From positions 1-64,000 of the forward strand of contig JAGWUI010000002.1 of assembly GCA_028868515.1 (NCBI GenBank): a DNA stretch of 64,000 nt, given 5' to 3'. Origin of the DNA: Gammaproteobacteria bacterium (lineage in GTDB: Bacteria > Pseudomonadota > Gammaproteobacteria > Pseudomonadales > Moraxellaceae). This document shows positions 1,191 to 53,681 of this stretch, piece after piece. Under the pieces are notes generated by a model, which saw nothing but the letters and a program-made list of their open reading frames with translations, was not told the DNA's origin and made no database searches. Position 1 is the first letter of the stretch; the number at the start of each line of letters is the position of its first letter. Both the position numbers and the translations under genes were made by a program.

Positions 1191-1901
1191 TTATAGAAAA
1201 CCTAATAGCGCAGCTTTAATTGTTGCTGAGATTTTGTTAGTTGCATTTAGTTTTTGAATGGAGTTGGCAATATGGAAGTTAATGGTTCTTTCAGAAGCAT
1301 TTAAAATACAGGAAATTTCATAAGAGGTTTTTCCTTCTGCGGTCCACCGTAAAACTTCAATTTCGCGGTTTGTCAGCTGTGCACGTGATTCTGGAATACT
1401 TTTAGCTTGTACCATCTTGGAGATAGTCATATGTGTTGCTTGTGCTAACCAATACATCTCCTTGTGGTGACTTTGAAGTTCTTTTTCTGAGATAGATTCT
1501 GTAGAGCGAGCAAGCGTCAACATACCTTGCGCACCATGTGCATCACGACAAGCTTGAACCCATCCGTGACGAAGTCCAAATGACGTTGCATCTTCCCATA
1601 AGTCACGCGCTGAAGTGAATAATGGGTCTGTCCAGATGATTGGATCTAATGAGTGCATACAATGATGCACAGTAGGATCAATTGTGAAGTAATTTTTTTC
1701 TGCGTAAATACGTTGCCAATCTTGTGAGTAATTATTCAGCATGACGATTTTAGGGACTGCAATTGCTGTAGGGATACGCAAACCATAAGCACAATAATCA
1801 AACCCTAAATTAGAGGATATCCGTCGAACCTCTTCAAATACTTCTTGTTCTGTTGTGAGATTTGAGAGTGCTGAGAGCTGATCTTCTTGCCAGATTTTCA
1901 T
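1191..1901 (-). CDS. abaR: LuxR-family acyl-homoserine-lactone receptor and transcription regulator (AbaR-like)
   Basis: Quorum-sensing activator that binds the signal made by the LuxI-type synthase encoded at 2623. The ATG at 1901 gives 236 aa starting MKIWQEDQL; an in-frame GTG at 1919 would add six residues but has a poorer upstream site. Counting from the GTG, the autoinducer-binding domain shows the conserved ligand-pocket residues W68, Y72, D81-P82 and W96. The C-terminal LuxR helix-turn-helix starts at LTNREIEVLRW (about 182) and contains the invariant E and G positions. The gene is transcribed away from the RsaM-like gene and luxI, with a lux-box-like site between them. The symbol rests on the Acinetobacter-like locus order. 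Confidence 0.88.
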   Translation of the reverse strand: MKIWQEDQLSALSNLTTEQEVFEEVRRISSNLGFDYCAYGLRIPTAIAVPKIVMLNNYSQDWQRIYAEKNYFTIDPTVHHCMHSLDPIIWTDPLFTSARDLWEDATSFGLRHGWVQACRDAHGAQGMLTLARSTESISEKELQSHHKEMYWLAQATHMTISKMVQAKSIPESRAQLTNREIEVLRWTAEGKTSYEISCILNASERTINFHIANSIQKLNATNKISATIKAALLGFL

Positions 1902-2000
1902 GATTTTCTTCTTCGTCACTCTTTTGTTGAGTATTGTATTTTAAGAAATGGGTTTGGTTTTCGTATTATAAGTGTTTGATTCAGTAGAAACTAGATGGAA

Positions 2001-2020
2001 ACCTGTTATATATAACAATA
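2001..2020. promoter_or_regulatory. lux-box-like operator in the luxR / rsaM-like divergent region
   Basis: The left half is an exact ACCTGT; after 8 nt the right half reads ACAATA against a canonical ACAGGT, so the 6+8+6 geometry of a lux box is kept. Inside it is a perfect 14-bp palindrome, TGTTATATATAACA (2004-2017). It is 35 bp upstream of the ORF at 2055 and 100 bp upstream of the luxR start. LuxR binding is an inference from geometry and position. Confidence 0.55.
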
Positions 2021-2054
2021 TTCTAATTGTCTATTAGCGTGTATGGTTTAGTCT

Positions 2055-2537
2055 ATGAGTTACAGAATCACTGAGACGGCTATGACGAAACACACCGATA
2101 GCATAAATATGCCAATCTATCAAGATATACAAGACGTGATTATGGAACTTTCAGACGATGGCTTTATTCGTATGGTATTTGATGAGTTGATGGAAACTCA
2201 ATTATTCCATTTGATCTCGATTAATGAAGAACATAATTTTGGTGATCCTTATACCAGAATGTTTGGTTATACCGAATGGGTAAGCCAGACGCCTTCTATT
2301 ATTAGTATTGGCTGGGATTGGAAGCTTAAGCATGATGATCGAGTGATTGATATTGTGAGAACTGGATTACCGAGAAGTAATCTTATGCTGACTGATAATT
2401 TAGAGTGCGATATTGGATTAGATCAGACATTGCATCTAATTAGCCAAAAAATTGACTCGATTGCATGGGAGGTGATCGTGAAAGATCAAATCCTAAAATC
2501 CCCAACCTACGACCATATGACATTTAGTTATTCATAG
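2055..2537 (+). CDS. abaM: RsaM/AbaM-like quorum-sensing modulator
   Basis: A small soluble acidic protein of up to 160 aa encoded between luxR and luxI, reading with luxI. Proteins in exactly this position in Acinetobacter (AbaM) and Burkholderia (RsaM) are negative modulators of homoserine-lactone signalling. The YTRMFGYTEW and SIGWDWKL stretches (about 73-105) look like the conserved core of that family. No DNA-binding motif or signal peptide is visible. The start is uncertain: ATG 2055 has no clear ribosome-binding site, while ATG 2082 has GAGACGG just upstream. The function is inferred from position plus weak sequence recognition. Confidence 0.6.
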   Translation: MSYRITETAMTKHTDSINMPIYQDIQDVIMELSDDGFIRMVFDELMETQLFHLISINEEHNFGDPYTRMFGYTEWVSQTPSIISIGWDWKLKHDDRVIDIVRTGLPRSNLMLTDNLECDIGLDQTLHLISQKIDSIAWEVIVKDQILKSPTYDHMTFSYS

Positions 2538-2539
2538 CA

Positions 2540-2559
2540 ACCTGTCAAGCTTACCAGTT
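2540..2559 (+). promoter_or_regulatory. lux box upstream of the LuxI-type synthase
   Basis: ACCTGT-CAAGCTTA-CCAGTT matches the canonical ACCTGT-N8-ACAGGT arrangement at 10 of 12 half-site positions. It lies 63 bp upstream of the synthase ATG and just after the rsaM-like stop codon. That is where a LuxR-type activator would bind to drive the positive feedback loop. Confidence 0.7.
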
Positions 2560-2622
2560 ATGAAATGTTGAGTTTTACGGTGAAATGCAACCTCGGATTT
2601 AATTTTATCTCGGGGTCTGTGT

Positions 2623-3195
2623 ATGGAATTTATTACAGGCAATTCAGCAAATCTATCTAATAATTTATATTCTAGAGTTGCTAACTATCGTCATAAAATC
2701 TTTGTTGAACGTCTAGGATGGGCGTTGAACACAAGTAATAATCAAGAACTAGATCAATTCGATCGACCAGACACAGTCTATATCATTGCACAAGATCATC
2801 TTGAGCAAATACATGGCTGTGCTCGTTTATTGCCAACAGATAAACCTTATCTATTAGGCGAAGTCTTTCCCCAACTGATTCCCAATGGCTTATCGTTACC
2901 CAACTCAAGTGAAATTTGGGAGCTGTCTCGGTTTGCTGCGGTGGATTTAGATAACCAACATACTGCAAGTGATGGACAGTTTTCATCGTCTGTTGCTGTC
3001 GGCTTATTACAAGCTGCAATTAATTGTGCTGCGTCTAAAGGCGCCAAACGGATTATTACCGTTTCGCCTGTTGGCGTGGAGCGATTATTGAGAAAGGCTG
3101 GATTCTATGCTCATCGAGCGGGTCCTCCAATGATTATTGATGGTTATCCGCTGTTCGCTTGTTGGATTGAGCTTGCTCCAGAAAATAAAATCTGA
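2623..3195 (+). CDS. abaI: Acyl-homoserine-lactone synthase (LuxI family, AbaI-like)
   Basis: Makes the quorum-sensing signal from S-adenosylmethionine and an acyl-ACP. The 190-aa length is normal for the family. The invariant LuxI residues are present: R23, F27, W33, D44, D47, R68, F82, E100 and R103 (ELSRFA motif 100-105). The start MEFITGNS is the only sensible ATG. A lux box at 2540-2559 suggests control by the neighbouring LuxR protein. Acyl chain length cannot be read from the sequence; Acinetobacter relatives mostly make 3-hydroxy-C12 signal. Downstream is a strong hairpin before the convergent DUF3108 gene. Confidence 0.93.
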   Translation: MEFITGNSANLSNNLYSRVANYRHKIFVERLGWALNTSNNQELDQFDRPDTVYIIAQDHLEQIHGCARLLPTDKPYLLGEVFPQLIPNGLSLPNSSEIWELSRFAAVDLDNQHTASDGQFSSSVAVGLLQAAINCAASKGAKRIITVSPVGVERLLRKAGFYAHRAGPPMIIDGYPLFACWIELAPENKI

Positions 3196-24234: not shown

Positions 24235-25398
24235 TTATTTCGTTTCATTAAACAGTTCACGCCCGATCAAGATACGACGTACTTCAGATGTACCTGCACC
24301 AATCTCACATAACTTTGCATCGCGCCATAAACGACCTGTTGGGGTGTCATTGATATAGCCATTTCCACCTAAGATTTGAATCGCTTGGCCAGCCATCCAA
24401 GTTGCTTTTTCTGCAGCATAGAGAATCACACCTGCGGCATCTTTGCGCGTGGCCTCACCGCGATCAGCGGCTTTTGCAACGGCATAACAATAAGCCGCGC
24501 AGACATTATAACCGACATACATGTCTGCTAATTTGCCTTGAATGAGCTGAAACTCTCCAATCGGTTGATTGAACTGCTGGCGTTCGTGGACATAGGGAAT
24601 CACGATATCGAGAGAAGCCGCCATGATGCCTAGCGGAATTGTCCCGAGTACGATGCGTTCATAATCGAGTCCTGACATGAGCACTTTCACGCCTTTATTG
24701 ACTTGACCTAGAACGTTTTCGACTGGAACTTTACAGTCTTGAAAAATCAATTCAGACGTGTTTGAGCCACGCATGCCTAATTTATCCAGCTTTTGTCCCT
24801 GACTAAAACCTTCAAAGCTTTTTTCAATAATAAAGGCTGTAATACCATGCTGATGCGCGGCTGGATCGGTTTTGGCATAGACGATGAGTACATCTGCATC
24901 TGGGCCATTGGTAATCCACATTTTATTGCCATTCAGGACGTAGTGGTCACCTTTTAATTCGGCACGGAGCTTCATACTGACAACATCGGAACCCGCTGTG
25001 GGTTCAGACATCGCAAGTGCGCCGATATGTTCACCAGTGACGAGCTTAGGCAGATATTTGTTTTTTTGTTCCCAACTACCATTCAGATGGAGTTGATTGA
25101 TACATAGATTGGAATGACAGCCATAAGACAGTCCAATCGCTGCCGAGCCTCGGGAAATTTCCTCAGTGACAACTGCGTGTTCTAAGTAACCAAGACCAAC
25201 ACCACCAAACTCCTCAGAGACGGTGATACCCAGTAATCCCAGATCTCCTAATTTACGCCATATCTCTTTTGGGAAGTGGTCATTTTTGTCGATTTGTTGA
25301 GCGATCGGCGTAATTTCGTTGGCGACAAATTGACGAACCATATCACGCAAAGCAACAGTAGATTCGGGTAAACCATGATTAAAACTAGGTGCGTACAT
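24235..25398 (-). CDS. Isovaleryl-CoA dehydrogenase-like acyl-CoA dehydrogenase
   Basis: 387-aa flavoprotein of the acyl-CoA dehydrogenase family, most like isovaleryl-CoA dehydrogenase of leucine breakdown. The FAD/substrate motif is [12 protein letters not shown] (about 128-139). The catalytic base is at the IVD-specific position, E247 in [10 protein letters not shown], not at the C-terminal position of medium-chain enzymes. The C-terminal [33 protein letters not shown] is intact. Unusually, the usual liuBCD partners (methylcrotonyl-CoA carboxylase and others) are not next to it. Confidence 0.88.
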
Positions 25399-25453
25399 CT
25401 ATTCTTATTCCCTGACAATGAGATTATGTTTGGCTATGTTTGACCATATTTGG

Positions 25454-26782
25454 CTAGGCGAGTCCTTCAATTGGAATTGTATCGGACTGATCCTGAAGGG
25501 AAAGATTGATCCATTTCAGTGCCTTAGTTTTGATTTTTTCAATATCTGCGACTGAGTATTTGACATCCGTGAAGGTAAAGGAAAAGGTCATTTTTCCTCG
25601 AATCGTCATGACGCATACAACGACTTCATCGAGTTTTCCAATCGTAGAAGGGAATATATTTTCAAATTCCAGTGAACCGAATTGACTTGGAAAATCTAAA
25701 TTTCCGAGATTGGTAATTGATAAGTCGTAGTCCATTTTGGTCAGTTGCTTGGCGATAAATCCTGGTGTAACGACTGGCACCAACTCATCCATCAAGGTAC
25801 AACCATCCGTTAATTCACTGAAAATGGATTGATCATCTGACTTTTGAACTAATGTTTTTTTAATTTCACGAGAAATATCCCAGAAATCACGTTCTGGATT
25901 ACAGTTGACATTGAATTTCACCGCATTGATATATAAACCAAATGCTTCACCGACTTTTGCAGTGAGTCGATTTCTAAGGTTTACGGGGTTTTGAATTTTT
26001 CTATTCCAGCCATCCCCATGAAATTCAGCAAATGCACGAAGAAATGCTGTACATAAGGCGGTGTGTACGGTTGCTTTTTCGGATTTACAGCGTGCTGCAA
26101 AAGCCGCAGTTTGTTCCTTACTCCATTCCCATGTCTGAATAAAATATTTTGGGTTAACTTCAGGAGTAGCCATACTGAACGAGGAGAGTTTAACCACGCG
26201 GAAGCTAAGTAGTAATTTCAGTAATTTAGCTTTGAGCTTGGCTAAAAACGTAATTCGCCATTTTCCTGAAAAGTTAGGAATCAGCGCGTTCAGTGGTGGG
26301 TATAACGGCAGTTTTTCAAACTTTAAGTCAGGATGTCCTAAGAGCGTTAAAATATCTCGAAGCACTAAAAAACCAGCTAAACCATCTGCAAATGCATGAT
26401 GACAAACAAGTAGAAGCTCTGAAACACCTTGACCACGAATCCAAACAATACGAATCGGTGGTTGAGTCAACATGTCAAAAGGAACGCCCATTTCAGTGGT
26501 TTGTATTTCGTTCCATGTGCTTGCAGTTTCGCGCTCGACAATTCGAAGTGGAATCACGAGGTCAGGGTTGGAAACAAATTCAGTCGTGCCATCTGGCTTC
26601 GGTACAACATGCATCGATAGTGTGGGATATTTGCCTTTAAGTCGTTCAATGGCATTGACGAGTTCATCGGTTGTGAATTCCCCCGTGATACGAAAGCTTG
26701 CCGTGAAGTTCTGGACAATTACCGTGGAGGCGAGCCAAACGGCGAGTTCAGCCCCCTGCATTTTCTGTTTTAATGAGGTCAT
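25454..26782 (-). CDS. Condensation-domain / PapA-like acyltransferase
   Basis: 442 aa from ATG 26782 (MTSLKQKMQGAEL). A CoA-dependent acyltransferase-superfamily protein: H128-H129-x3-D133-G134 (CHHAFADGLAG) is the catalytic HHxxxDG motif shared by NRPS condensation domains, PapA proteins and wax-ester synthases. The C-terminal half has the NLGNLDFPSQFG and VVVCVMTIRGKMTFSFTF segments typical of this fold. No carrier protein or NRPS gene is nearby, so it is a stand-alone enzyme. A lipid-ester or acyl-amide product is possible, but the substrate is unknown. Confidence 0.75.
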   Translation of the reverse strand: MTSLKQKMQGAELAVWLASTVIVQNFTASFRITGEFTTDELVNAIERLKGKYPTLSMHVVPKPDGTTEFVSNPDLVIPLRIVERETASTWNEIQTTEMGVPFDMLTQPPIRIVWIRGQGVSELLLVCHHAFADGLAGFLVLRDILTLLGHPDLKFEKLPLYPPLNALIPNFSGKWRITFLAKLKAKLLKLLLSFRVVKLSSFSMATPEVNPKYFIQTWEWSKEQTAAFAARCKSEKATVHTALCTAFLRAFAEFHGDGWNRKIQNPVNLRNRLTAKVGEAFGLYINAVKFNVNCNPERDFWDISREIKKTLVQKSDDQSIFSELTDGCTLMDELVPVVTPGFIAKQLTKMDYDLSITNLGNLDFPSQFGSLEFENIFPSTIGKLDEVVVCVMTIRGKMTFSFTFTDVKYSVADIEKIKTKALKWINLSLQDQSDTIPIEGLA

Positions 26783-26812
26783 AAAGTATTCCACATGAAT
26801 TTTTAGATGGCG

Positions 26813-27712
26813 TTATTTTTTTGCCGCGCGGTGAAACGCTTCCCCAGCTTGAATAGGATCATAGGTGAGGGCAAAGACATCTAGCCAAGTTGAATACTGT
26901 GCAATATGTGGCGCATGACACGGATGAAAATCGGGTTGAAAATATTCCAACCATGTTTTTGCCATCGGCGCGAGGATACCTTTGCGGTTGAATCCCCAAT
27001 GTAGACCCCGAGCAAGCAATTTCATGCGTTTTGGAAAGCTAAAACCATCTGCTTTTAAGAATGCATTGGTATTTACAATCAGTTCACGGGTCATATCGGC
27101 TGTGAGAAACAGCATTGCGCCTGCACGTTTTAGGTATGAAACGCGTGCGACATATTGCATAACATCATATGCAACTGATTTGTGTTCCATTTCTTCAATA
27201 GAATGCCAAGCGAGCATGGCGAGTACGCGGACATCCTGAACACCAGCCATCGTTTCGTGATTTCTGAAAAAGCATTCAACAAAGATTGCCGTGAGATGCT
27301 CACATGCCGCAGTAATGGCAAGGTTCATTTCTGGTGATAGCTTGCTTTGATTGAAGGCAAGTTTCTTTTTCAGCGCTTCTTCAACTTGGTTAATGGGCAA
27401 ACCTTGTTGACGTAATAGGTCATTAAACTGGGTGTGCACAATGCCGTGCTGACTTTCTTGGCGTATAAATTGACGTACTTCTTCTTTCAATCGAGGGCTT
27501 TGGATTTTTTCACGGAAATTGCGAACGCTTTGAATGAAGTATTTTTCGCCTTCAGGAAATGTTGCACACACGGCCTCTAACATTCTGGTTTTGACAGGAT
27601 CATTGTCAAACCAGTATTTGGGAATTGTACTATCCAGTTTGAAATCTAGGGATTCGCGGACAGTGATATCGGTTGGGATATTTTCGATATAGTTCGTAAT
27701 ACTTACCGTCAT
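26813..27712 (-). CDS. PF10118-type predicted metal-dependent hydrolase
   Basis: 299 aa. The motifs FPEGEKYFIQSVRNFREKI, FIRQESQHGIVHTQFND and WHSIEEMEHKSVAYDVMQY carry the conserved Glu/His pairs of PF10118, a ferritin-like helical family annotated as predicted metal-dependent hydrolases. No biochemical role is firmly known. It lies 30 bp upstream of the acyltransferase-like gene on the same strand, so both are probably co-expressed from a promoter within 27713-28105. Confidence 0.8.
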   Translation of the reverse strand: MTVSITNYIENIPTDITVRESLDFKLDSTIPKYWFDNDPVKTRMLEAVCATFPEGEKYFIQSVRNFREKIQSPRLKEEVRQFIRQESQHGIVHTQFNDLLRQQGLPINQVEEALKKKLAFNQSKLSPEMNLAITAACEHLTAIFVECFFRNHETMAGVQDVRVLAMLAWHSIEEMEHKSVAYDVMQYVARVSYLKRAGAMLFLTADMTRELIVNTNAFLKADGFSFPKRMKLLARGLHWGFNRKGILAPMAKTWLEYFQPDFHPCHAPHIAQYSTWLDVFALTYDPIQAGEAFHRAAKK

Positions 27713-28105: not shown

Positions 28106-29179
28106 TTACTCATTGATTCGATAAAACCTCAGCGCATTTTCTCGAAAAATTGCTTTCAGTGCCGCATCGCCATAAGGTGCGATCATCTCAATTTTTGCTT
28201 CGATAATGTCAGGCAGCGTTGCTGTGACTTTATCCATTGGGAAGTTTGAAGCAAATATCAAACGCTCATAACCAAAGACATCGACAGCATGTTCAATAAA
28301 CGGAGAGAGTAGATCAATAATAGTATCTACATCAGCTAATTGACGTTGCTTGTGAAAAGAATGTCCAAGAACAGGCATGAGTAGCCCTGAGACTTTGGCA
28401 TGTACATGTTTTTGTTCAGCAAGTGTCGCAATATCGTCTTTCCACTGACTAAAAATTCCTGCGCGCTGGCTTGCTGTTTTTCCAGTTCCACGTCCGACTG
28501 AGCCAAAGACACCAACAGGTGTTGCCAAGTGATCAATGACGATGGCGATTTCAGGAAATTGTTTTGCCAAAAAAGTCACATCAGCCAGTTGGGTCGAGTA
28601 TGCCCAAGCATCAAAACTGAGATTATATTTTGCTAATAATTCAAAACGCTTCAGAAAAATAGGGTTGGTATAGGCATGAGGGTAAATATTCCAAGCGTGT
28701 ACGCCTGAATCTGGATGGTGTGCTGCCATGCAGCGTATACCACGAAATAAAGGCGAGGCAGCGATATGCGCACGGAGGATACTTTCAAATGCAGGATTGA
28801 GTGGGTCTGCTTTGCCAATGATTGCGCCGAGTTTTGGGCTTCGTTGTCCAAAAGGCAATTGGGCAATCCATCGCGTTTCTTCAACAGGGCCTAAACCGCG
28901 CTGATGATGCCAATCCGCCTCAACATGGACGACTGTTTCCACATTAAATGGTGCGCAATCTTGAACATAATCCTGAGGTAAATAAGGTGCTAAGGTGTAG
29001 TCTGTGAGTCCAATCGTATCAATCGTTGCTTGAGGTGCTCCGAGCCGTGCAACGCGATCGAGCACACGCGGAAAACGCCCCAAGAGCTTCACTGCTAATG
29101 CTGCTTGGTGTGGCGTGTGGTAAGGATCCCATTGGTGAATATGTGGATCAACGATTGAGAATGGCAGGTTTGTTGTCAT
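28106..29179 (-). CDS. COG3618-type amidohydrolase (lactonase-like TIM-barrel hydrolase)
   Basis: 357 aa of the amidohydrolase-2 family. The metal-binding HxH is in VDPHIHQWDP (about 10-19). Further ligands are the VVHVEADWH, IVIDHLA and FASNFPMDK segments, the last with the catalytic Asp. Characterised COG3618 relatives are lactonases for sugar lactones, muconolactone-type compounds or pyrones. The gene lies at the downstream end of the acyl-CoA/kinase/SDR cluster on the same strand, which suggests hydrolysis of a lactone feeding that pathway; this is inferred. Confidence 0.78.
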   Translation of the reverse strand: MTTNLPFSIVDPHIHQWDPYHTPHQAALAVKLLGRFPRVLDRVARLGAPQATIDTIGLTDYTLAPYLPQDYVQDCAPFNVETVVHVEADWHHQRGLGPVEETRWIAQLPFGQRSPKLGAIIGKADPLNPAFESILRAHIAASPLFRGIRCMAAHHPDSGVHAWNIYPHAYTNPIFLKRFELLAKYNLSFDAWAYSTQLADVTFLAKQFPEIAIVIDHLATPVGVFGSVGRGTGKTASQRAGIFSQWKDDIATLAEQKHVHAKVSGLLMPVLGHSFHKQRQLADVDTIIDLLSPFIEHAVDVFGYERLIFASNFPMDKVTATLPDIIEAKIEMIAPYGDAALKAIFRENALRFYRINE

Positions 29180-29331
29180 TTTTGATTATCCAAAAAACTA
29201 TAGTATTTCCAATATAAAGACCTACACATACAAGAACACTGAGCTTCGTTAAAGTATGGTTTTCATATCACCGCGCATTTCGACTTCGCTCAATGAGCTA
29301 TGCCGTTTTAGATCATAATTTTTGACGTAAA

Positions 29332-30075
29332 TCATCCGAGCTTAGAGACCCAGCGTAAAGGTAAAACTTTCATCAGTGCGCCTAAAGGCGCCCAAGGCCA
29401 ACTTGGAACACAAGCGGTACTTGGTTCACGTTCGATTGCGCGGACTAATGCCAGACTGCCAACAGCCTCACTGACTTCAAATGGCAGCTTTGCTGCACCT
29501 TCGTTGAGTTCGGTACGGATATAGCCAGGTAGAATTGTGCTGACCTTGATGGGCGTATCCATGAGTTCTGCGCGAATGCCCTCAGTCAGCGCGGCAAGTG
29601 CGGCTTTACTGGCGGCATAAGTTGTGAGGTGGCGAGGAAGACCACGAATCGCACTCATCGACGAGATGGTGACAAGGTGTCCAGCATTTTGGCGGCGGAA
29701 AATTGCAACAGCCGCTTCGCATTGTGCTAGTCCTGCGATGAAGTTGGTTTCAGCGGTTTGACGATTAATTTCAAAATGACCTTTGCCGATGCGTCGTCCA
29801 TTACCTACACCTGCGTTGACAATGATCCGATCGAGTTGACCAAATTCTTTGGCAAATTCCTCGAAGACTTCAAAAACTTGTGGGTAATTATTAACATCGA
29901 GTATGCGGATAGAAACTTGGACATTGTATTTTTCAGTCAGTTCTTTTTTGAGTTCTTCTAACCGTTCAATACGACGTGCGCATAATGCAAGATTATGTCC
30001 GCGCGCAGCAAATTCACGTGCCATGCCTGCGCCAATTCCTGAGCTAGCACCTGTGATGAGAATATTTTTACGCAT
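29332..30075 (-). CDS. Short-chain dehydrogenase/reductase
   Basis: 247 aa, classical SDR. The NAD(P) motif is TGASSGIG (8-15), NAG is at 87-89, and the catalytic S138/S139, Y153 and K157 (TTYAASKAAL) are present. CARRIERL after the second beta strand suggests NADPH preference. It lies between the amidohydrolase and the phosphatase genes, all on the minus strand. The substrate is unknown; the cluster context suggests a hydroxy- or keto-acyl compound. Confidence 0.87.
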   Translation of the reverse strand: MRKNILITGASSGIGAGMAREFAARGHNLALCARRIERLEELKKELTEKYNVQVSIRILDVNNYPQVFEVFEEFAKEFGQLDRIIVNAGVGNGRRIGKGHFEINRQTAETNFIAGLAQCEAAVAIFRRQNAGHLVTISSMSAIRGLPRHLTTYAASKAALAALTEGIRAELMDTPIKVSTILPGYIRTELNEGAAKLPFEVSEAVGSLALVRAIEREPSTACVPSWPWAPLGALMKVLPLRWVSKLG

Positions 30076-30115
30076 GATTCAGACTCCATAAAATGTTCAA
30101 TACTTGTGTTTCGTC

Positions 30116-30808
30116 TCAGCGATAGGTCAAAAGTTCGTGATGACGCCCACTGAAATGTCCATGTTCGTTCAGACTCATCAAATGACGGTTGCTGGATGTT
30201 TGTGCGATGCGGGTTAATCCGCAATTTGCTAGCGTCCAGTTTGTCCGAAAGGTTGTGAGGTCGCTGAGATCAAGCAAGGCTTTTGCAGCGACCGAAATAC
30301 ATCCACCAGATGTAAATACAAGCGCTTGTTGTTTATGTGCTAATTGCCCAATGGCGGTATCCAGACCTGTTTGAACACGGCGTTGGAATTGTGGCCAAGA
30401 CTCATCATATTCATCATGATGTTGACCTGCGACCCAGCGGGTAATGGCGGCTTTAAAGATATTCATAAAGGCTTCATCAGGGTGTGCATGCTTGACCATC
30501 TCGCTGGCAATCCAAGCGCGATCACGAATGCGTGGCTCATATCGCTCAAGGATATGTTCGTGATCAAACTCGTTGAAATCAGGAAGCACTTGTAATGGTA
30601 AGTCTAAGCCCATCGCTTCAAGACACGTTTCAGCGGTCTGACGATGTCGCAACATGCTGCCGATAAAGACTTGATCAATGGGTTCTTCGCGTACGCGCAG
30701 CATCGTGCCGAGTTGGCGTGCTTGCGCATAACCTGTGTCCGAGAGTTGGTCGTAGTTCTTTTTACCGAATGAGGCTTGTCCGTGACGAATCAGTATAAGC
30801 GTTGACAT
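30116..30808 (-). CDS. Histidine phosphatase family protein
   Basis: 230 aa of the phosphoglycerate-mutase-like superfamily. The phospho-histidine motif is LIRHGQASFG (R8, H9, G10). The second catalytic His is expected in the VFTSGG region (about 165), but the usual SHG is replaced by TSGG. This variation, common in divergent members, makes activity uncertain. It lies only 3 bp downstream of the APH-fold kinase gene, so the two are translated from one message and the phosphatase may act on the kinase's product. Confidence 0.8.
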   Translation of the reverse strand: MSTLILIRHGQASFGKKNYDQLSDTGYAQARQLGTMLRVREEPIDQVFIGSMLRHRQTAETCLEAMGLDLPLQVLPDFNEFDHEHILERYEPRIRDRAWIASEMVKHAHPDEAFMNIFKAAITRWVAGQHHDEYDESWPQFQRRVQTGLDTAIGQLAHKQQALVFTSGGCISVAAKALLDLSDLTTFRTNWTLANCGLTRIAQTSSNRHLMSLNEHGHFSGRHHELLTYR

Positions 30809-30811
30809 AGA

Positions 30812-31879
30812 TTAGCCTCGATCTGCACGAATAGTCTGACGACAACGACGCCAAATTGCCCAGTTAATCAGCCAAAAATACTTAAATGCTGGATTATCAG
30901 TTTGCTTATGATAATAACGATAATAGATCTGCTGCACGATTGCGGCGACGCGGAATAAGCCTGCCACTTCGTAGAATGCCCAATGCTTAATTTGCACGCC
31001 GGTTTTGGCTTTGTAATATTTCACCACTTCGTCACGCGTCAGCATGCCTGCAAGGTGGGTCGGCTGGCGACGCGTTTTGCGCAAAACGCCTTTATCACTT
31101 GCCTGAGTCCAGTAGGAGAGCACATTCCCGAGTTCCATCAGTGGATCACCGAGTGTTGCCATTTCCCAATCCAGCACACCGATCACTTGCGTTGGATGCT
31201 CAGGATCAAGCACAACGTTATCAAAACGCCAATCGTTATGAATCACACAAGTTGCAGAGTCAGCTGGTGTATTTTCCTTTAACCATGCTTGAATGCCTTT
31301 GTATGAAGGTACATTCCACGTATGAACTTTGTTATAACGATCACACCAACCATCGATTTGACGTTTACAGTATCCGTCGCCTTTGCCCAAAGACTCTAAA
31401 CCTGCTGCACGATAATCTATTTGGTGTAAGGCAATCAGTTGATCGAGCGTGTTGGTACATAACTGGCGAACTTCAGCTTCACTCATGGTGAGTTCTTTTG
31501 GTAAGTTTGCGCGTGGAATAATCCCTTCGATACGGCGCATGATATAAAAATCACTGCCAATCACAGCTTGATCTGTACATAACGCAATCATGTCAGCAAC
31601 GACAGGGTAGACAGCTTTCAGTTGTTTTTGTACATGATATTCGCGGCTCATATCATGCGCGCCTTTGGCTTTGGTGCCAGCAGGCGGTCTACGCAAGATC
31701 AGATCATGATTGGCGTATTTCAGGCGATATGTCCAATTCGATGCCCCGCCAGAATATTGCGTGACTTCAGGTAATCCGTCCGCAAGGTCTGGTAAAAAAG
31801 GGCGCAGCCAAGCATCGACTTTTTCAATGTCTAGTTCTTCGCCGTGGCGGATTGAACCACCTTGATCAATAAGAGCCAT
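30812..31879 (-). CDS. APH-fold phosphotransferase (ACAD10/11- or LvaA-like kinase)
   Basis: 355 aa of the aminoglycoside-phosphotransferase fold. The catalytic loop is HNDWRFDN (H214, D216, N221) and the metal motif is LDWEMATLGDPLMELG (D237). The nucleotide-binding part includes the lysine-equivalent LILRRPPAG, which is typical of the N-terminal kinase domain of ACAD10/ACAD11 and of bacterial LvaA-type 4-hydroxyacyl-CoA kinases rather than of drug-resistance enzymes. An ACAD10/11-like dehydrogenase is encoded two genes upstream. Kinase activity on 4-hydroxyacyl-CoA is a strong inference from family and context. Confidence 0.85.
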   Translation of the reverse strand: MALIDQGGSIRHGEELDIEKVDAWLRPFLPDLADGLPEVTQYSGGASNWTYRLKYANHDLILRRPPAGTKAKGAHDMSREYHVQKQLKAVYPVVADMIALCTDQAVIGSDFYIMRRIEGIIPRANLPKELTMSEAEVRQLCTNTLDQLIALHQIDYRAAGLESLGKGDGYCKRQIDGWCDRYNKVHTWNVPSYKGIQAWLKENTPADSATCVIHNDWRFDNVVLDPEHPTQVIGVLDWEMATLGDPLMELGNVLSYWTQASDKGVLRKTRRQPTHLAGMLTRDEVVKYYKAKTGVQIKHWAFYEVAGLFRVAAIVQQIYYRYYHKQTDNPAFKYFWLINWAIWRRCRQTIRADRG

Positions 31880-31953
31880 ATTTTACTTTCCTATCAGTCT
31901 TTTTAAGAATGTATTACTTTGGACTACGGATTAAGAGTCCGCTGTTCTAAGGT

Positions 31954-32766
31954 TTATCTTGGTTTCATTCGACTGACGCTACGTTGAAAGAGTTTGTTGT
32001 ATAAACGTTGTGGTAAATAACGTTTTGCCAGCCATAAATGTTCGCCTGATGCATGAGGCAGGATATATGCCTGTTGTTTTTCAACACCAGTGAAGATTTT
32101 TTCAGCCACTTGTTCTGCGGTCAACTTGCCGCTGCTGAGTAATTTTCCCATCATTTTCTTCATTCTTGGATCGGTCGTACGCATTGTTTCTTCGAGATTG
32201 GTTTGGAAGAAAGACGGGCAGACCACACTGACATGAATTCCATCATCCATCAGTTCTTGTTCCAGCGTTCCAGATAGCGCAACGACGGCGGCTTTAGTCA
32301 CGTTATAAGATGCCATACGAGGGACATCGAGTAATCCTGCCATAGATGCAATATTGACGATATGACCCGAACCTTGACGTTTAAAAATAGGCGTAAAAAC
32401 TTTGCAGCCACGCACGACACCAAGCAGATTGATATTGATAATCCATTCCCAATCACTGATGGTCACATCTTCAATTGCACCTGCTTGAGCGACGCCTGCA
32501 TTATTGATGAGTACATCCAGACCACCCCAGAGTTGACTTAACTCATCAGCAATCGCTTGTAGATCTTCTTCGCGAGTCACATCAGCATGACGATAGAGCA
32601 TTTCAGATCCTGAATAGGACAAGGCTTCAAGTTCTTTGCGAGTTTCTTCTCCGCGTAGATCATTCAGATCTGCGATACAGACACTCCAACCTGCACGCGC
32701 GTAATGCAAGGCGAGTGCGCGACCTAATCCACTTGCACCGCCTGTGATGAATACTCTTTTTGCCAT
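31954..32766 (-). CDS. Short-chain dehydrogenase/reductase
   Basis: 270 aa. Nucleotide-binding TGGASGLG (8-15), NNAG (88-91), catalytic S141, Y154 and K158 (YNVTKAAV). ADLND after the second strand suggests NAD(H). The basic C-terminus (KLFQRSVSRMKPR) is typical of SDRs acting on lipids. It lies 36 bp downstream of the ACAD10/11-like dehydrogenase gene. Probably oxidises or reduces a fatty hydroxy/keto-acyl group; the exact substrate is unknown. Confidence 0.87.
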   Translation of the reverse strand: MAKRVFITGGASGLGRALALHYARAGWSVCIADLNDLRGEETRKELEALSYSGSEMLYRHADVTREEDLQAIADELSQLWGGLDVLINNAGVAQAGAIEDVTISDWEWIININLLGVVRGCKVFTPIFKRQGSGHIVNIASMAGLLDVPRMASYNVTKAAVVALSGTLEQELMDDGIHVSVVCPSFFQTNLEETMRTTDPRMKKMMGKLLSSGKLTAEQVAEKIFTGVEKQQAYILPHASGEHLWLAKRYLPQRLYNKLFQRSVSRMKPR

Positions 32767-32802
32767 GACTGAAAGTTCCTTTTCTATTTCTACGATTGAC
32801 GG

Positions 32803-34035
32803 TTATTTAGAGAAACCACGTTTAGCAAGCTCGATACGAGCAATCACGCCTTTATGCACTTCATCAGGCCCATCGGCGAGTCGCAGGCTGCGCGCTTGCG
32901 CAAAGAACGAGGTCAATGGCGTATCTTGTGACATTCCTGCGCCGCCATGAATTTGAATCGCCATATCGACAACCTGTTGTAACACATTAGGCGCAACGAC
33001 TTTAATGGCTGAGATTTCAGTCATGGCACCGAAAGTACCCATCGTATCCATCTTCCATGCAGCATAAAGGGTTAATAAGCGCGCCTGATCAATTGCAATG
33101 CGAGCTTCTGCAACACGCTCACGATTTCCGCCGAGATTGATGAGAGGTTTACCAAAAGCGGTTCGCTGCATACCGCGATCAATCATCAGTTCCAATGATT
33201 TTTCAGCTGCGCCAATACAGCGCATGCAGTGATGAATACGACCTGGTCCAAGACGACCTTGTGCAATGGCAAAACCTTCACCAGGCCCGGAAATGAAACT
33301 ACTGATCGGGACTCGTACGTTGGTGAAAGTGACTTCGCCATGACCATGCGGCGCGTCATAATCACCGAATACAGGTAGCATCCGTTCGATTCTGATACCA
33401 GCAGTATCGAGTGGTACAAGTACCATCGAGTGCTGATTATGTCGGCCGCTGCTTGGATTAGGCGTGTGCGCCATGAAAATGGCAACTTTGCAATGCGGAT
33501 CACCAATGCCACTAGACCACCACTTGCGCCCATTGAGTACGATTTCATCACCTTCAATGATGGCAGTGGCTTGCATATTGGTTGCGTCAGAAGAAGCAAC
33601 ATCAGGTTCGGTCATGCAGAATACAGAACGGATTTCACCAGCCAAAAGTGGCATTAACCAGCGTTGTTTTTGTTCTTCACTACCATAACGCCACAAGACT
33701 TCCATATTGCCAGTATCTGGGGCATTACAATTGAATACGGTTGGAGCGAGTAAGCTACGACCTGTTTGTTCGGCAATATGAGCATATTCCTGAATATTTA
33801 GACCAGCGCCAAGTTTTTCGTCAGGCAGCCAAAGATTCCATAAACCTTGTGCTTTAGCTTTATCTTTGAGTTCTTCCAGAATGGCAGGAATTTTCCATTG
33901 AGTCCAATCACCACCTACGCAATTCTCACGGACTTCAGCCCAGAATGCTGGCTCTGCGGGTTCAATTTGATCACGAATAAAAACTTTGACGCGTTCTAAA
34001 ATATCTTGCCCGCGTGCGCTGAGTTCAAAATGCAT
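32803..34035 (-). CDS. ACAD10/11-like acyl-CoA dehydrogenase
   Basis: 410 aa from ATG 34035, preceded by AGGGAGAG; the ATG at 34083 would overlap a palindromic operator and has no ribosome-binding site. The flavin motif is FCMTEPDVASSDATN. GRLGPGRIHHCMRCIGAAEKSLELM is the signature of the ACAD10/11 (LvaC-like) subgroup, in which the usual glutamate base is not at the short-chain position. The C-terminal IHGGAGMSQDTPL and RLADGPDEVHK are intact. First gene of the minus-strand cluster, divergent from a LysR gene. Confidence 0.9.
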   Translation of the reverse strand: MHFELSARGQDILERVKVFIRDQIEPAEPAFWAEVRENCVGGDWTQWKIPAILEELKDKAKAQGLWNLWLPDEKLGAGLNIQEYAHIAEQTGRSLLAPTVFNCNAPDTGNMEVLWRYGSEEQKQRWLMPLLAGEIRSVFCMTEPDVASSDATNMQATAIIEGDEIVLNGRKWWSSGIGDPHCKVAIFMAHTPNPSSGRHNQHSMVLVPLDTAGIRIERMLPVFGDYDAPHGHGEVTFTNVRVPISSFISGPGEGFAIAQGRLGPGRIHHCMRCIGAAEKSLELMIDRGMQRTAFGKPLINLGGNRERVAEARIAIDQARLLTLYAAWKMDTMGTFGAMTEISAIKVVAPNVLQQVVDMAIQIHGGAGMSQDTPLTSFFAQARSLRLADGPDEVHKGVIARIELAKRGFSK

Positions 34036-34061
34036 GGCGGCTCTCCCTTGATGATGATCGC

Positions 34062-34082
34062 TGATTTCATGTAGAGAAATCA
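34062..34082. promoter_or_regulatory. LysR-type operator candidate
   Basis: A perfect inverted repeat TGATTTC-N7-GAAATCA contains a T-N11-A LysR box (T34066, A34078). It lies between the dehydrogenase start at 34035 and the divergent LysR start at 34153, where such regulators bind to control both genes. Confidence 0.65.
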
Positions 34083-34152
34083 TGCTAAAGACGTATCCTT
34101 ATCTTAGAGTTTGTCATACGATGTAGAAAATGATTATTTCTCATGGTATGTC

Positions 34153-35064
34153 ATGAATGAAACGAATGACTTAAACAAACTCGATCGTCTCGATCTTAAT
34201 CTATTTCGCGTCTTCGATACGGTTTATCGTGAGCGTAATTTAACGCATGCCGCAGAAATCCTTTGCTTGAGCCAATCTGCGGTGAGTCATGCGGTTGGAC
34301 GTCTACGAGCAAGCCTTGGTGATCCGTTGTTTGTGCGTGAAGGACAAGGTGTTGTACCGACGCCTTTGGCGGATCGTCTTTGGCCAGATGTTAAAGATGC
34401 ACTAGCACTGTTTCGTCAAGCAGTGATGCGTCATCAAAGCTTTGAGCCTGCGCGAGATTTGGCTCACATTACTTTGGCGATGAATGACAAACTAGAACCG
34501 AGCATTCTGCCCGTCATTACTAAAAAGTTACATGAAACTATCCCAGATCTTCAACTGGCAAGTATTCGCCTTGATCGTAGTAATCTACGCGCGGATCTCG
34601 TTGCGGGACGTATTGATTTTGCAATCGATGTGGCGCAGCCGACATCACCTGATATTTGCCATACTTTATTAATGAGAGATGAGTTTGCCGTTGTCTGCCG
34701 AGAGAATCGACAGATTAGTGCAGATGATTATTTGGCGGCACGTCATGTGACGGTGTCTTCGCGTCGTACAGGACGATCATTAGAAGAATATGGTTTGTCT
34801 CGTTTAGGCATAGAACGTGAAGTGGTCGTGCGCTGTCAATATTACGAAGCAGCATGTCGTCTGGTTGCGGATAGTGATCTTTTATTAACCATGCCACTTC
34901 ACCAAGCGACGACAATTAATGCCACATTAGGTAACGCCGTGCTACCGATGCCATTGCCATTATCTGGAATAGAGCTGCATTTATATTGGCATCAACAACG
35001 CGAGGTTGATCCAGCAAATCAATGGTTAAGAGGCGAATTGATGCAGATGTTTAATGCCTCATAA
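34153..35064 (+). CDS. LysR-family transcription regulator
   Basis: 303 aa from ATG 34153 (MNETNDLNKLDRLDLNLF); the ATG at 34111 would add 14 residues. The N-terminal winged helix-turn-helix is in LDLNLFRVFDTVYRERNLTHAAEILCLSQSAVSHAVGRLR. The substrate-binding domain covers about 105-300. It is transcribed away from the ACAD10/11-like operon with a T-N11-A box between, so it most likely regulates that operon and itself. The inducer is unknown. Confidence 0.9.
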   Translation: MNETNDLNKLDRLDLNLFRVFDTVYRERNLTHAAEILCLSQSAVSHAVGRLRASLGDPLFVREGQGVVPTPLADRLWPDVKDALALFRQAVMRHQSFEPARDLAHITLAMNDKLEPSILPVITKKLHETIPDLQLASIRLDRSNLRADLVAGRIDFAIDVAQPTSPDICHTLLMRDEFAVVCRENRQISADDYLAARHVTVSSRRTGRSLEEYGLSRLGIEREVVVRCQYYEAACRLVADSDLLLTMPLHQATTINATLGNAVLPMPLPLSGIELHLYWHQQREVDPANQWLRGELMQMFNAS

Positions 35065-52843: not shown

Positions 52844-53089
52844 ATGACGGTTAAAGTATTATTTTTTGCAAAATTGCGTGAAAAAATGGGTATCAGTGAA
52901 GTTAACTTTACACTCAATCAATCGATAACTTTGAATGAGTTTCAAACATTATTTGCAACTGAATACCCACTTTTTTCAGATTTGCCACAACCGATTGTTG
53001 TTGCGATCAATCAAGAATTTGCGCAACCAGATCAGTTGGTTTCATCTGGCGATGAAGTGGCATTTTTCCCTCCTGTGACGGGTGGATAA
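52844..53089 (+). CDS. moaD: Molybdopterin synthase sulfur-carrier subunit MoaD
   Basis: 81 aa from ATG 52844; starts MTVKVLFFAKLREKMG and ends in the required diglycine (PPVTGG), which is thiocarboxylated by MoeB. Ubiquitin fold. ATG 52832 would overlap the moaC stop. The stop overlaps the possible GTG start of moaE, so translation is coupled. Confidence 0.94.
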   Translation: MTVKVLFFAKLREKMGISEVNFTLNQSITLNEFQTLFATEYPLFSDLPQPIVVAINQEFAQPDQLVSSGDEVAFFPPVTGG

Positions 53090-53102
53090 CTGGGCAACTG
53101 AA

Positions 53103-53681
53103 ATGTCTAAAATTCCTGATTTTGAGCCGATTAATATTCCGATTAATATTCCGATTAATATTCCGATTAATATTCCGATTAATATTCCGATTAATATTCC
53201 GATTAATATTCCGATTAATATTCCGATTGATGTTGCGATTTTAAATGAGCCTTTTAGCGCTTCAGACTTAGATCAAAGATTTAATGCTTTGAATTTGAGA
53301 TCGGGTGCGGCTGGCGCGGTTGTGACCTTTTTAGGTCAAGTGCGTGAATCTGGGGATCGTCAAGATGTAACGGGCTTAGTTTTGGAACATTATTCAGGAA
53401 TGACTGAGCGTGTTTTACATCAGCATATCGTCAATGCCTGTCAACGTTGGTCATTGTTAGGCGTTGTTGTGGTTCATCGTGTGGGAAGAATGGCGTTGGG
53501 TGAAAATATTGTCGGTGTTGTGGTTGCAAGCCAACATCGCCAAGCTGCATTTGATGCCGTGCAATATTTAATGGATTTTCTGAAAAATGATGTGCCTATC
53601 TGGAAACAGGAGTTAACCGATCAAGGTGCAGAGTGGGTGGAGCAAAAAGAAGCGGATTTAGGTACAGTTTCAAGATGGTGA
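53103..53681 (+). CDS. moaE: Molybdopterin synthase catalytic subunit MoaE with an N-terminal tandem repeat
   Basis: 192 aa from ATG 53103; a GTG at 53082 overlaps moaD and would add seven residues. The catalytic part (about 50-192) is normal: GAVVTFLGQVRESG, LEHYSGMTERVL, VVHRVGRMALGENIVGVVVASQHRQAAFDAVQYLMDFLKNDVPIWKQE. In front is an unusual segment of eight copies of the four-residue unit P-I-N-I, encoded by an exact 12-bp tandem repeat, so the protein is about 40 residues longer than E. coli MoaE (150 aa). The repeat replaces the normally short N-terminal strand and is probably tolerated as disordered or beta-like sequence. Confidence 0.94.
   Translation: MSKIPDFEPINIPINIPINIPINIPINIPINIPINIPINIPIDVAILNEPFSASDLDQRFNALNLRSGAAGAVVTFLGQVRESGDRQDVTGLVLEHYSGMTERVLHQHIVNACQRWSLLGVVVVHRVGRMALGENIVGVVVASQHRQAAFDAVQYLMDFLKNDVPIWKQELTDQGAEWVEQKEADLGTVSRW
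53127..53222 (+). repeat. Eight exact copies of a 12-bp tandem repeat in moaE
   Basis: The unit CCGATTAATATT begins at 53127 and repeats without mismatch eight times to 53222; a degenerate ninth unit (CCGATTGATGTT) ends at 53234. Being a multiple of three, copy-number change keeps the reading frame. Each unit encodes P-I-N-I. Confidence 0.97.

Follow-up and report, generated by a model that had tools for sequence, protein, structure and literature searches.

A LysR-linked gene cluster of the ACAD10/ACAD11/LvaC type with a histidine phosphatase carrying serine at the second catalytic histidine site

Introduction

The genes for 4-hydroxy acid breakdown by way of a phosphorylated coenzyme A (CoA) ester were identified in 2017 for bacteria and in 2024–2025 for mammals. 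Here we analyzed a 64,000-nucleotide stretch (positions 1 to 64,000 of contig JAGWUI010000002.1, our contig C53; hereafter the window) from a 3.34-Mb Moraxellaceae genome (assembly GCA_028868515.1), which carries a cluster of a kinase, an acyl-CoA dehydrogenase (ACAD), short-chain dehydrogenases/reductases (SDRs) and a histidine phosphatase next to a LysR-type regulator. The cluster belongs to this known pathway type as a widely distributed variant that has a LysR gene and shows one new feature, a serine in place of the second catalytic histidine of the phosphatase. The presence of a histidine phosphatase in such a cluster has already been published. The host bacterium is related to Perlucidibaca; the closest named relative of its kinase, at 80% identity, comes from Perlucidibaca aquatica.

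Three described systems are close to this locus. The lva operon (Rand 2017), as far as it is summarized in PMC6692424 and PMC12440821, has in common with the window an APH-fold kinase, an LvaC-type dehydrogenase and an SDR. According to the same summaries it is controlled by the sigma-54 regulator LvaR, whereas the window has LysR, and the window cluster lacks lvaB, the ligase and the transporter but contains a histidine phosphatase and two SDRs. The closest published precedent is the levulinate cluster of Pseudomonas citronellolis LA18T, which consists of lvaA (kinase), a histidine phosphatase, lvaC (ACAD) and lvaD (SDR) without lvaB (Habe 2019; PMC6692424). Its order (kinase-phosphatase-ACAD-SDR), its LvaR-type regulator and the ligase and transporter next door differ from the window. 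In mammals, ACAD10 and ACAD11 pair a kinase with an ACAD acting on 4-hydroxyacyl-CoA (PMC11342911, PMC12440821), and ACAD11 has a QGRLGPGRIHHCMR motif identical to that of the window dehydrogenase. The mammalian activities are fused in one chain, whereas the window genes are separate. ACAD10 also has a phosphatase-fold domain whose active site is incomplete, a likeness to the window phosphatase, but this domain has the HAD fold and not the histidine phosphatase fold.

Layout and Conservation of the Cluster

Six genes lie on the minus strand in the order ACAD, SDR1, kinase, histidine phosphatase, SDR2 and amidohydrolase, with LysR divergent on the plus strand. All of these open reading frames (ORFs) were found in the order given by the first-pass annotation, which had been made from the sequence without database searches, and both motifs that it had quoted, GRLGPGRIHHCMR and HNDWRFDN, are present. 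The phosphatase ORF begins exactly 3 bp after the kinase ORF, as had been noted; 152 bp separate SDR2 from the amidohydrolase. Pfam matches were Acyl-CoA_dh, adh_short (twice), APH (151 bits), His_Phos_1 (78 bits), Amidohydro_2 (77 bits) and LysR. The features are as follows.

34111..35064, plus strand: LysR-type regulator, divergent, 317 aa as listed (Pfam LysR_substrate and HTH_1)
34036..34152, no strand: LysR/ACAD intergenic region, putative regulatory region (by position)
32803..34083, minus strand: ACAD10/ACAD11/LvaC-type acyl-CoA dehydrogenase, 426 aa as listed (Pfam, PDB relatives and motifs)
31954..32766, minus strand: SDR1, NCBIfam PRK05650-type SDR oxidoreductase, 270 aa (377.7 bits, cut-off 297)
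30812..31879, minus strand: APH-fold kinase of clade A, proposed 4-hydroxyacyl-CoA kinase, 355 aa (PF01636)
30116..30808, minus strand: histidine phosphatase, 230 aa, nucleophile His9 kept, Ser167 for the second catalytic His (PF00300)
29332..30075, minus strand: SDR2, NCBIfam PRK08251-type SDR oxidoreductase, 247 aa (407.7 bits, cut-off 253)
28106..29179, minus strand: Amidohydro_2/COG3618-like hydrolase, 357 aa, accessory gene (PF04909)

Comparison with homologs suggests that the true ACAD start is probably near 34035 (Met17) and the true LysR start probably near 34153, which would leave a gap of about 117 bp. By its position, this gap is the probable regulatory region. Its best imperfect palindrome is the AT-rich ATGATTATTTCTCAT at 34130–34144, near the probable LysR start; as the sign of a LysR box in this region, such a weak palindrome supports no conclusion. 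Promoter and terminator scans gave fewer matches than expected from shuffled sequence, and a match at 29212–29185 before the amidohydrolase is not evidence.

We examined conservation in two sets. The first contained 80 named loci from Pseudomonadota, Myxococcota, Bacteroidota, Acidobacteriota and Actinomycetota, some of them cut by contig ends. tblastn with the window proteins found the ACAD in 71, SDR2 in 60, the phosphatase in 56, LysR in 40 (mostly divergent), SDR1 in 22 and the amidohydrolase in one (Alkanindiges). SDR1 is thus facultative, and where SDR2 is absent its slot is often filled by a PRK07035-type SDR. The second set comprised 70 related whole genomes with a clade-A kinase (see below). 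In 66 of these genomes the phosphatase lies on the same strand as the kinase and within 1.5 kb of it, and in 64 the ACAD is no more than 2.5 kb away. Of the four genomes without an adjacent phosphatase, two have an incomplete kinase match, so that a contig break is likely there. An Ideonella dechloratans plasmid carries the same core of LysR, ACAD, SDR, kinase and histidine phosphatase. The core, LysR and ACAD-(SDR)-kinase-histidine phosphatase-SDR, therefore occurs in five phyla as well as on a plasmid, and this recurrence of its order across the named loci and in 64–66 of the 70 related genomes argues that the cluster is not a chance assembly. The co-occurrence of all six genes, a check suggested with the first-pass annotation, held for the core but not for the amidohydrolase, which is within 6 kb of the kinase in only 6/70 genomes.

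Dehydrogenase and Kinase

The best solved relatives of the window ACAD are 4hr3 (581 bits; annotated as a putative acyl-CoA dehydrogenase) and ACAD11 (463 bits, 54% identity over 404 aa), and the next family scored 140 bits. In ACAD11, R626, H634 and R637 hold the 4-phosphate, R631 is conserved and D753 is catalytic (PMC12440821). Counterparts of all five residues, located by counting along the alignment, are present in the window ACAD; they fall in QGRLGPGRIHHCMR and LADGPDEVH, which are letter-identical in the two proteins. Among the 118 ACADs of the fetched loci that scored above 480 bits, QGRLGPGRIHHCMR (the HCMR motif) is exact in 108 and has one exchanged residue in eight more. Because the window dehydrogenase is closer to ACAD11 than to ordinary ACADs and has the complete phosphate-binding set, we assign it by sequence to the ACAD10/ACAD11/LvaC type, as first proposed. 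In L213–L219 (family f21), an ACAD10/11-type ACAD adjoins LysR with no kinase in the locus. An apparent bacterial ACAD fusion, a 745-aa ORF in genome G114, was rejected: it is an upstream extension of the ACAD frame without a kinase domain.

The window kinase was compared with the PDB by phmmer. It matched 9o56 (annotated as an aminoglycoside phosphotransferase) with 253 bits, the ACAD11 kinase domain with 173 and 3dxp with 161. The comparison with antibiotic and choline kinases had been named beforehand as a check, and a macrolide kinase reached 19 bits. The catalytic HxDxxxxN motif and the DWE aspartate are intact, with H214, D216, N221 and D237 invariant. Sequence similarity thus places the kinase in the ACAD10/11-like APH group and not among antibiotic or choline kinases. 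In a maximum-likelihood tree the kinases formed three groups: A with the window, B with ACAD11 (Shimodaira–Hasegawa-like approximate likelihood ratio test, SH-aLRT, 96), and C linked to DUF6285. The root is unsure, since the outgroup branches are very long. Identity to ACAD11 was 30–36% in clade A and 40–47% in clade B; for comparison, LvaA is 29% identical to ACAD10/11 (PMC11342911). The proposed placement thus stood at the level of the ACAD10/11-like group, but the window kinase is outside the ACAD11 clade.

No second kinase of the ACAD10/11-like type was found in the window genome; its two other full-length APH matches look like homoserine kinase and AmgK. No kinase-phosphatase fusion was seen among the ORFs looked at, a search that was not systematic. 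An LvaB-like 12-kDa partner was sought at the locus, where the genes of the cluster leave no space between them for a small gene. DUF6285 (PF19802) was considered as LvaB. It is missing from the window genome, and in 47 relatives it pairs with distant clade-C kinases, to which it is adjacent or fused. This candidate was dropped because DUF6285 accompanies clade C, many loci of which (L185–L204) have ACADs without the HCMR motif.

The Histidine Phosphatase

The first-pass annotation regarded a histidine phosphatase in the operon as unusual. The adjacency in 66/70 genomes and the published P. citronellolis cluster (PMC6692424) speak otherwise, and the phosphatase is among the most constant neighbors of the cluster. 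In an alignment of the cluster copies R8, H9, R54 and E80 are conserved, and Ser167 occupies the second catalytic His site. The RHG nucleophile motif, the second Arg and the acid Glu are found in the window protein and in 95–96 of 96 copies (one has an RHA variant). The serine is present in 96/96 copies of the locus set (86 beside clade-A kinases, nine beside clade B, one without a nearby kinase) and in two plasmid copies, 98/98 in all. Near relatives are part of this count, and some genomes appear in it twice because they came from different collections, so it does not represent 98 independent events. We therefore put the weight of this finding on the phylum span and on the two kinase clades. 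The second His is kept in all 22 other readable histidine phosphatases from the window genome and related genomes, and in a profile alignment the Ser167 column is His in all five solved structures aligned. In the phosphatase tree, computed with the Ser column included, a branch with SH-aLRT 99 separates the Ser copies from the rest. The AlphaFold model has a predicted local distance difference test score (pLDDT) of 93.8, and its best PDB matches are phosphoserine phosphatases. Compared with members of branch 1 of the histidine phosphatase superfamily (4ij5, CobC, PhoE), the window protein thus has the fold and RHG nucleophile in common but differs in the Ser and in forming its own clade. Neither the Ser exchange nor the breadth of the phosphatase association was found in the literature searched.

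Two explanations of this protein were considered. It is possible, if doubtful, that it is an ordinary house-cleaning phosphatase in which the Ser is neutral, and that the cluster is the P. citronellolis arrangement with nothing new. Phosphatase catalysis may indeed persist, since nucleophile His9, Arg8, Arg54 and acid Glu80 are invariant, and the phosphatase was proposed earlier to strip phosphate from 4-phosphovaleryl-CoA (Habe 2019; PMC6692424). If the change were neutral, however, drift at this site would be expected, and the retention of Ser in 98/98 copies with two kinase clades and in several phyla, against His in 22/22 controls, disfavors this explanation. We put forward, tentatively, that the Ser-type phosphatases may form a dedicated subfamily that binds the kinase or the phospho-product, controls phosphorylation rather than performing simple hydrolysis, and replaces LvaB in systems without lvaB, with the defective HAD domain of ACAD10 as a convergent case. 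In that domain the catalytic motif is incomplete; mutating the domain increases kinase output, and the authors inferred feedback restraint (PMC11342911). The parallel is suggestive and is not evidence of the same role; since the crippled phosphatase domain of ACAD10 appears to restrain its kinase, a regulator or partner role of the Ser-type phosphatase is worth testing.

Proposed Pathway

The conserved core is probably a LysR-linked operon that brings 4-hydroxylated acyl chains into beta-oxidation. Support for this reading comes from the 4-phosphate residues of the ACAD and the HCMR motif in nearly all cluster ACADs, from the kinase, which is nearest to ACAD10/11-like kinases and has all catalytic residues, and from the retention of the core across phyla together with the similar P. 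citronellolis levulinate cluster. The lack of another such kinase in the genome and the ligase genes outside the cluster count in its favor as well. The 4-hydroxyacyl-CoA would be supplied by a ligase encoded elsewhere or would remain after a longer hydroxy fatty acid has been partly beta-oxidized. The APH-fold kinase would then phosphorylate the 4-hydroxyl with ATP to give 4-phosphoacyl-CoA, and the dehydrogenase with flavin adenine dinucleotide (FAD) would eliminate the phosphate to give 2-enoyl-CoA for beta-oxidation. These substrates and reactions, which agree with the original proposal, are probable from relatives of the two enzymes. The two SDRs probably catalyze the LvaD-type interconversion of 4-oxo- and 4-hydroxyacyl-CoA or act on 3-hydroxyacyl-CoA. 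The Ser-type phosphatase would work on the kinase or beside it: it may dephosphorylate 4-phosphoacyl-CoA that the dehydrogenase cannot clear, or may be a partner that tunes the kinase in place of LvaB. The absence of an acyl-CoA ligase from the cluster, first read as an incomplete pathway, is no gap: eight AMP-binding matches lie elsewhere in the genome, and a Pseudomonas putida strain that lacks lvaE can still use levulinate for growth (PMC6692424).

Several points weigh against this reading. The substrates of all cluster members rest on relatives. The ACAD11 kinase falls in clade B and the window kinase in clade A, and any tie of clade A to LvaA (P. putida, Q88G01) is indirect, by way of ACAD10/11-like kinases. 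Two clade-A kinases (G132 and G114) adjoin other ACAD types, so substrates may vary. Oleate hydratase, which could supply hydroxy fatty acid, is absent from the genome and was rejected as a substrate source.

An SBF (BASS) transporter is co-directional with the core in several Alteromonadaceae loci (L096, L099, L112, L113, L115, L117, and L120; the L096 copy was identified with Pfam and the rest through sequence clusters and N-terminal similarity). This gene could point to import of an organic acid as the substrate.

It is unlikely that the kinase-dehydrogenase pair acts on some other CoA ester with a hydroxyl group, whether branched, aromatic or with a steroid side chain, and not on simple 4-hydroxy fatty acids. 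Phosphatase-kinase pairs do adjoin two-ACAD sets in G132 (L054) and in Sulfitobacter (L266), the core holds two different SDRs, and the transporter just described would fit such a substrate as well. Yet the window ACAD keeps the exact ACAD11/LvaC phosphate-binding set, which is known only for 4-phosphoacyl-CoA substrates.

The Amidohydrolase and Gamma-Lactones

4-Hydroxy acids and gamma-lactones interconvert chemically. The lactonase-like hydrolase had been placed in the pathway, which would make the cluster a gamma-lactone catabolic operon in which this enzyme opens the lactone and the others degrade the 4-hydroxy acid. The gene is an accessory of its own genus and Alkanindiges (g10), the two genera that account for the six genomes in which it is near the kinase, and is not part of the core. 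It is present without any kinase in G001, of the same genus as the window, and in seven genomes of genus g15, presumed to be Acinetobacter, it lies at another place on the chromosome, far from the kinase. The protein scored 58 bits with the curated fuconolactonase model (cut-off 400), too low for a lactonase assignment, and near its C-terminus has Asn (ASNFP) where 4dlf has Asp (GSDWP). Hydrolases of different kinds adjoin the core in other genera. Perlucidibaca and Paraburkholderia have Str_synth/SGL (SMP-30/gluconolactonase-like), Acinetobacter a GDSL lipase, and Aliidiomarina, Nafulsella and Alteromonas alpha/beta hydrolases. Such unrelated neighbors would fit hydrolysis feeding the pathway. 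Hydrolase genes are common, however, and we give these neighbors little weight because the counts stand without a background frequency. A gamma-lactone operon thus appears improbable, and the core is better described as 4-hydroxyacyl-CoA breakdown of the kind set out above.

Other Features of the Window

At coordinates below those of the amidohydrolase, on one strand, are an acyl-CoA dehydrogenase (24235–25398), a Condensation/PapA/AATase-like acyltransferase (25454–26794) and a PF10118 metal hydrolase (26813–27712); this group (24235–27712) is outside the conserved core. A quorum-sensing locus at 1191–3195 consists of a LuxR-type autoinducer-binding regulator (minus strand) and a DUF4902 protein with a LuxI-type autoinducer synthase (plus strand). 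The 5' end of the moaE ORF (53082–53681) contains, at 53127–53240, 9.5 repeats of a 12-bp unit, CCGATTAATATT, which would give MoaE an N-terminal extension of PINI repeats if read from the first start codon.

Biological Meaning

The role of the phosphatase-like parts of these systems, the HAD domain of ACAD10 and the phosphatase of P. citronellolis, was left open in the published accounts. In the widespread cluster described here, the phosphatase is a separate protein, has the same active-site exchange in every copy examined and is nearly always found with the kinase, which makes the question of this role testable with small proteins and simple deletions.

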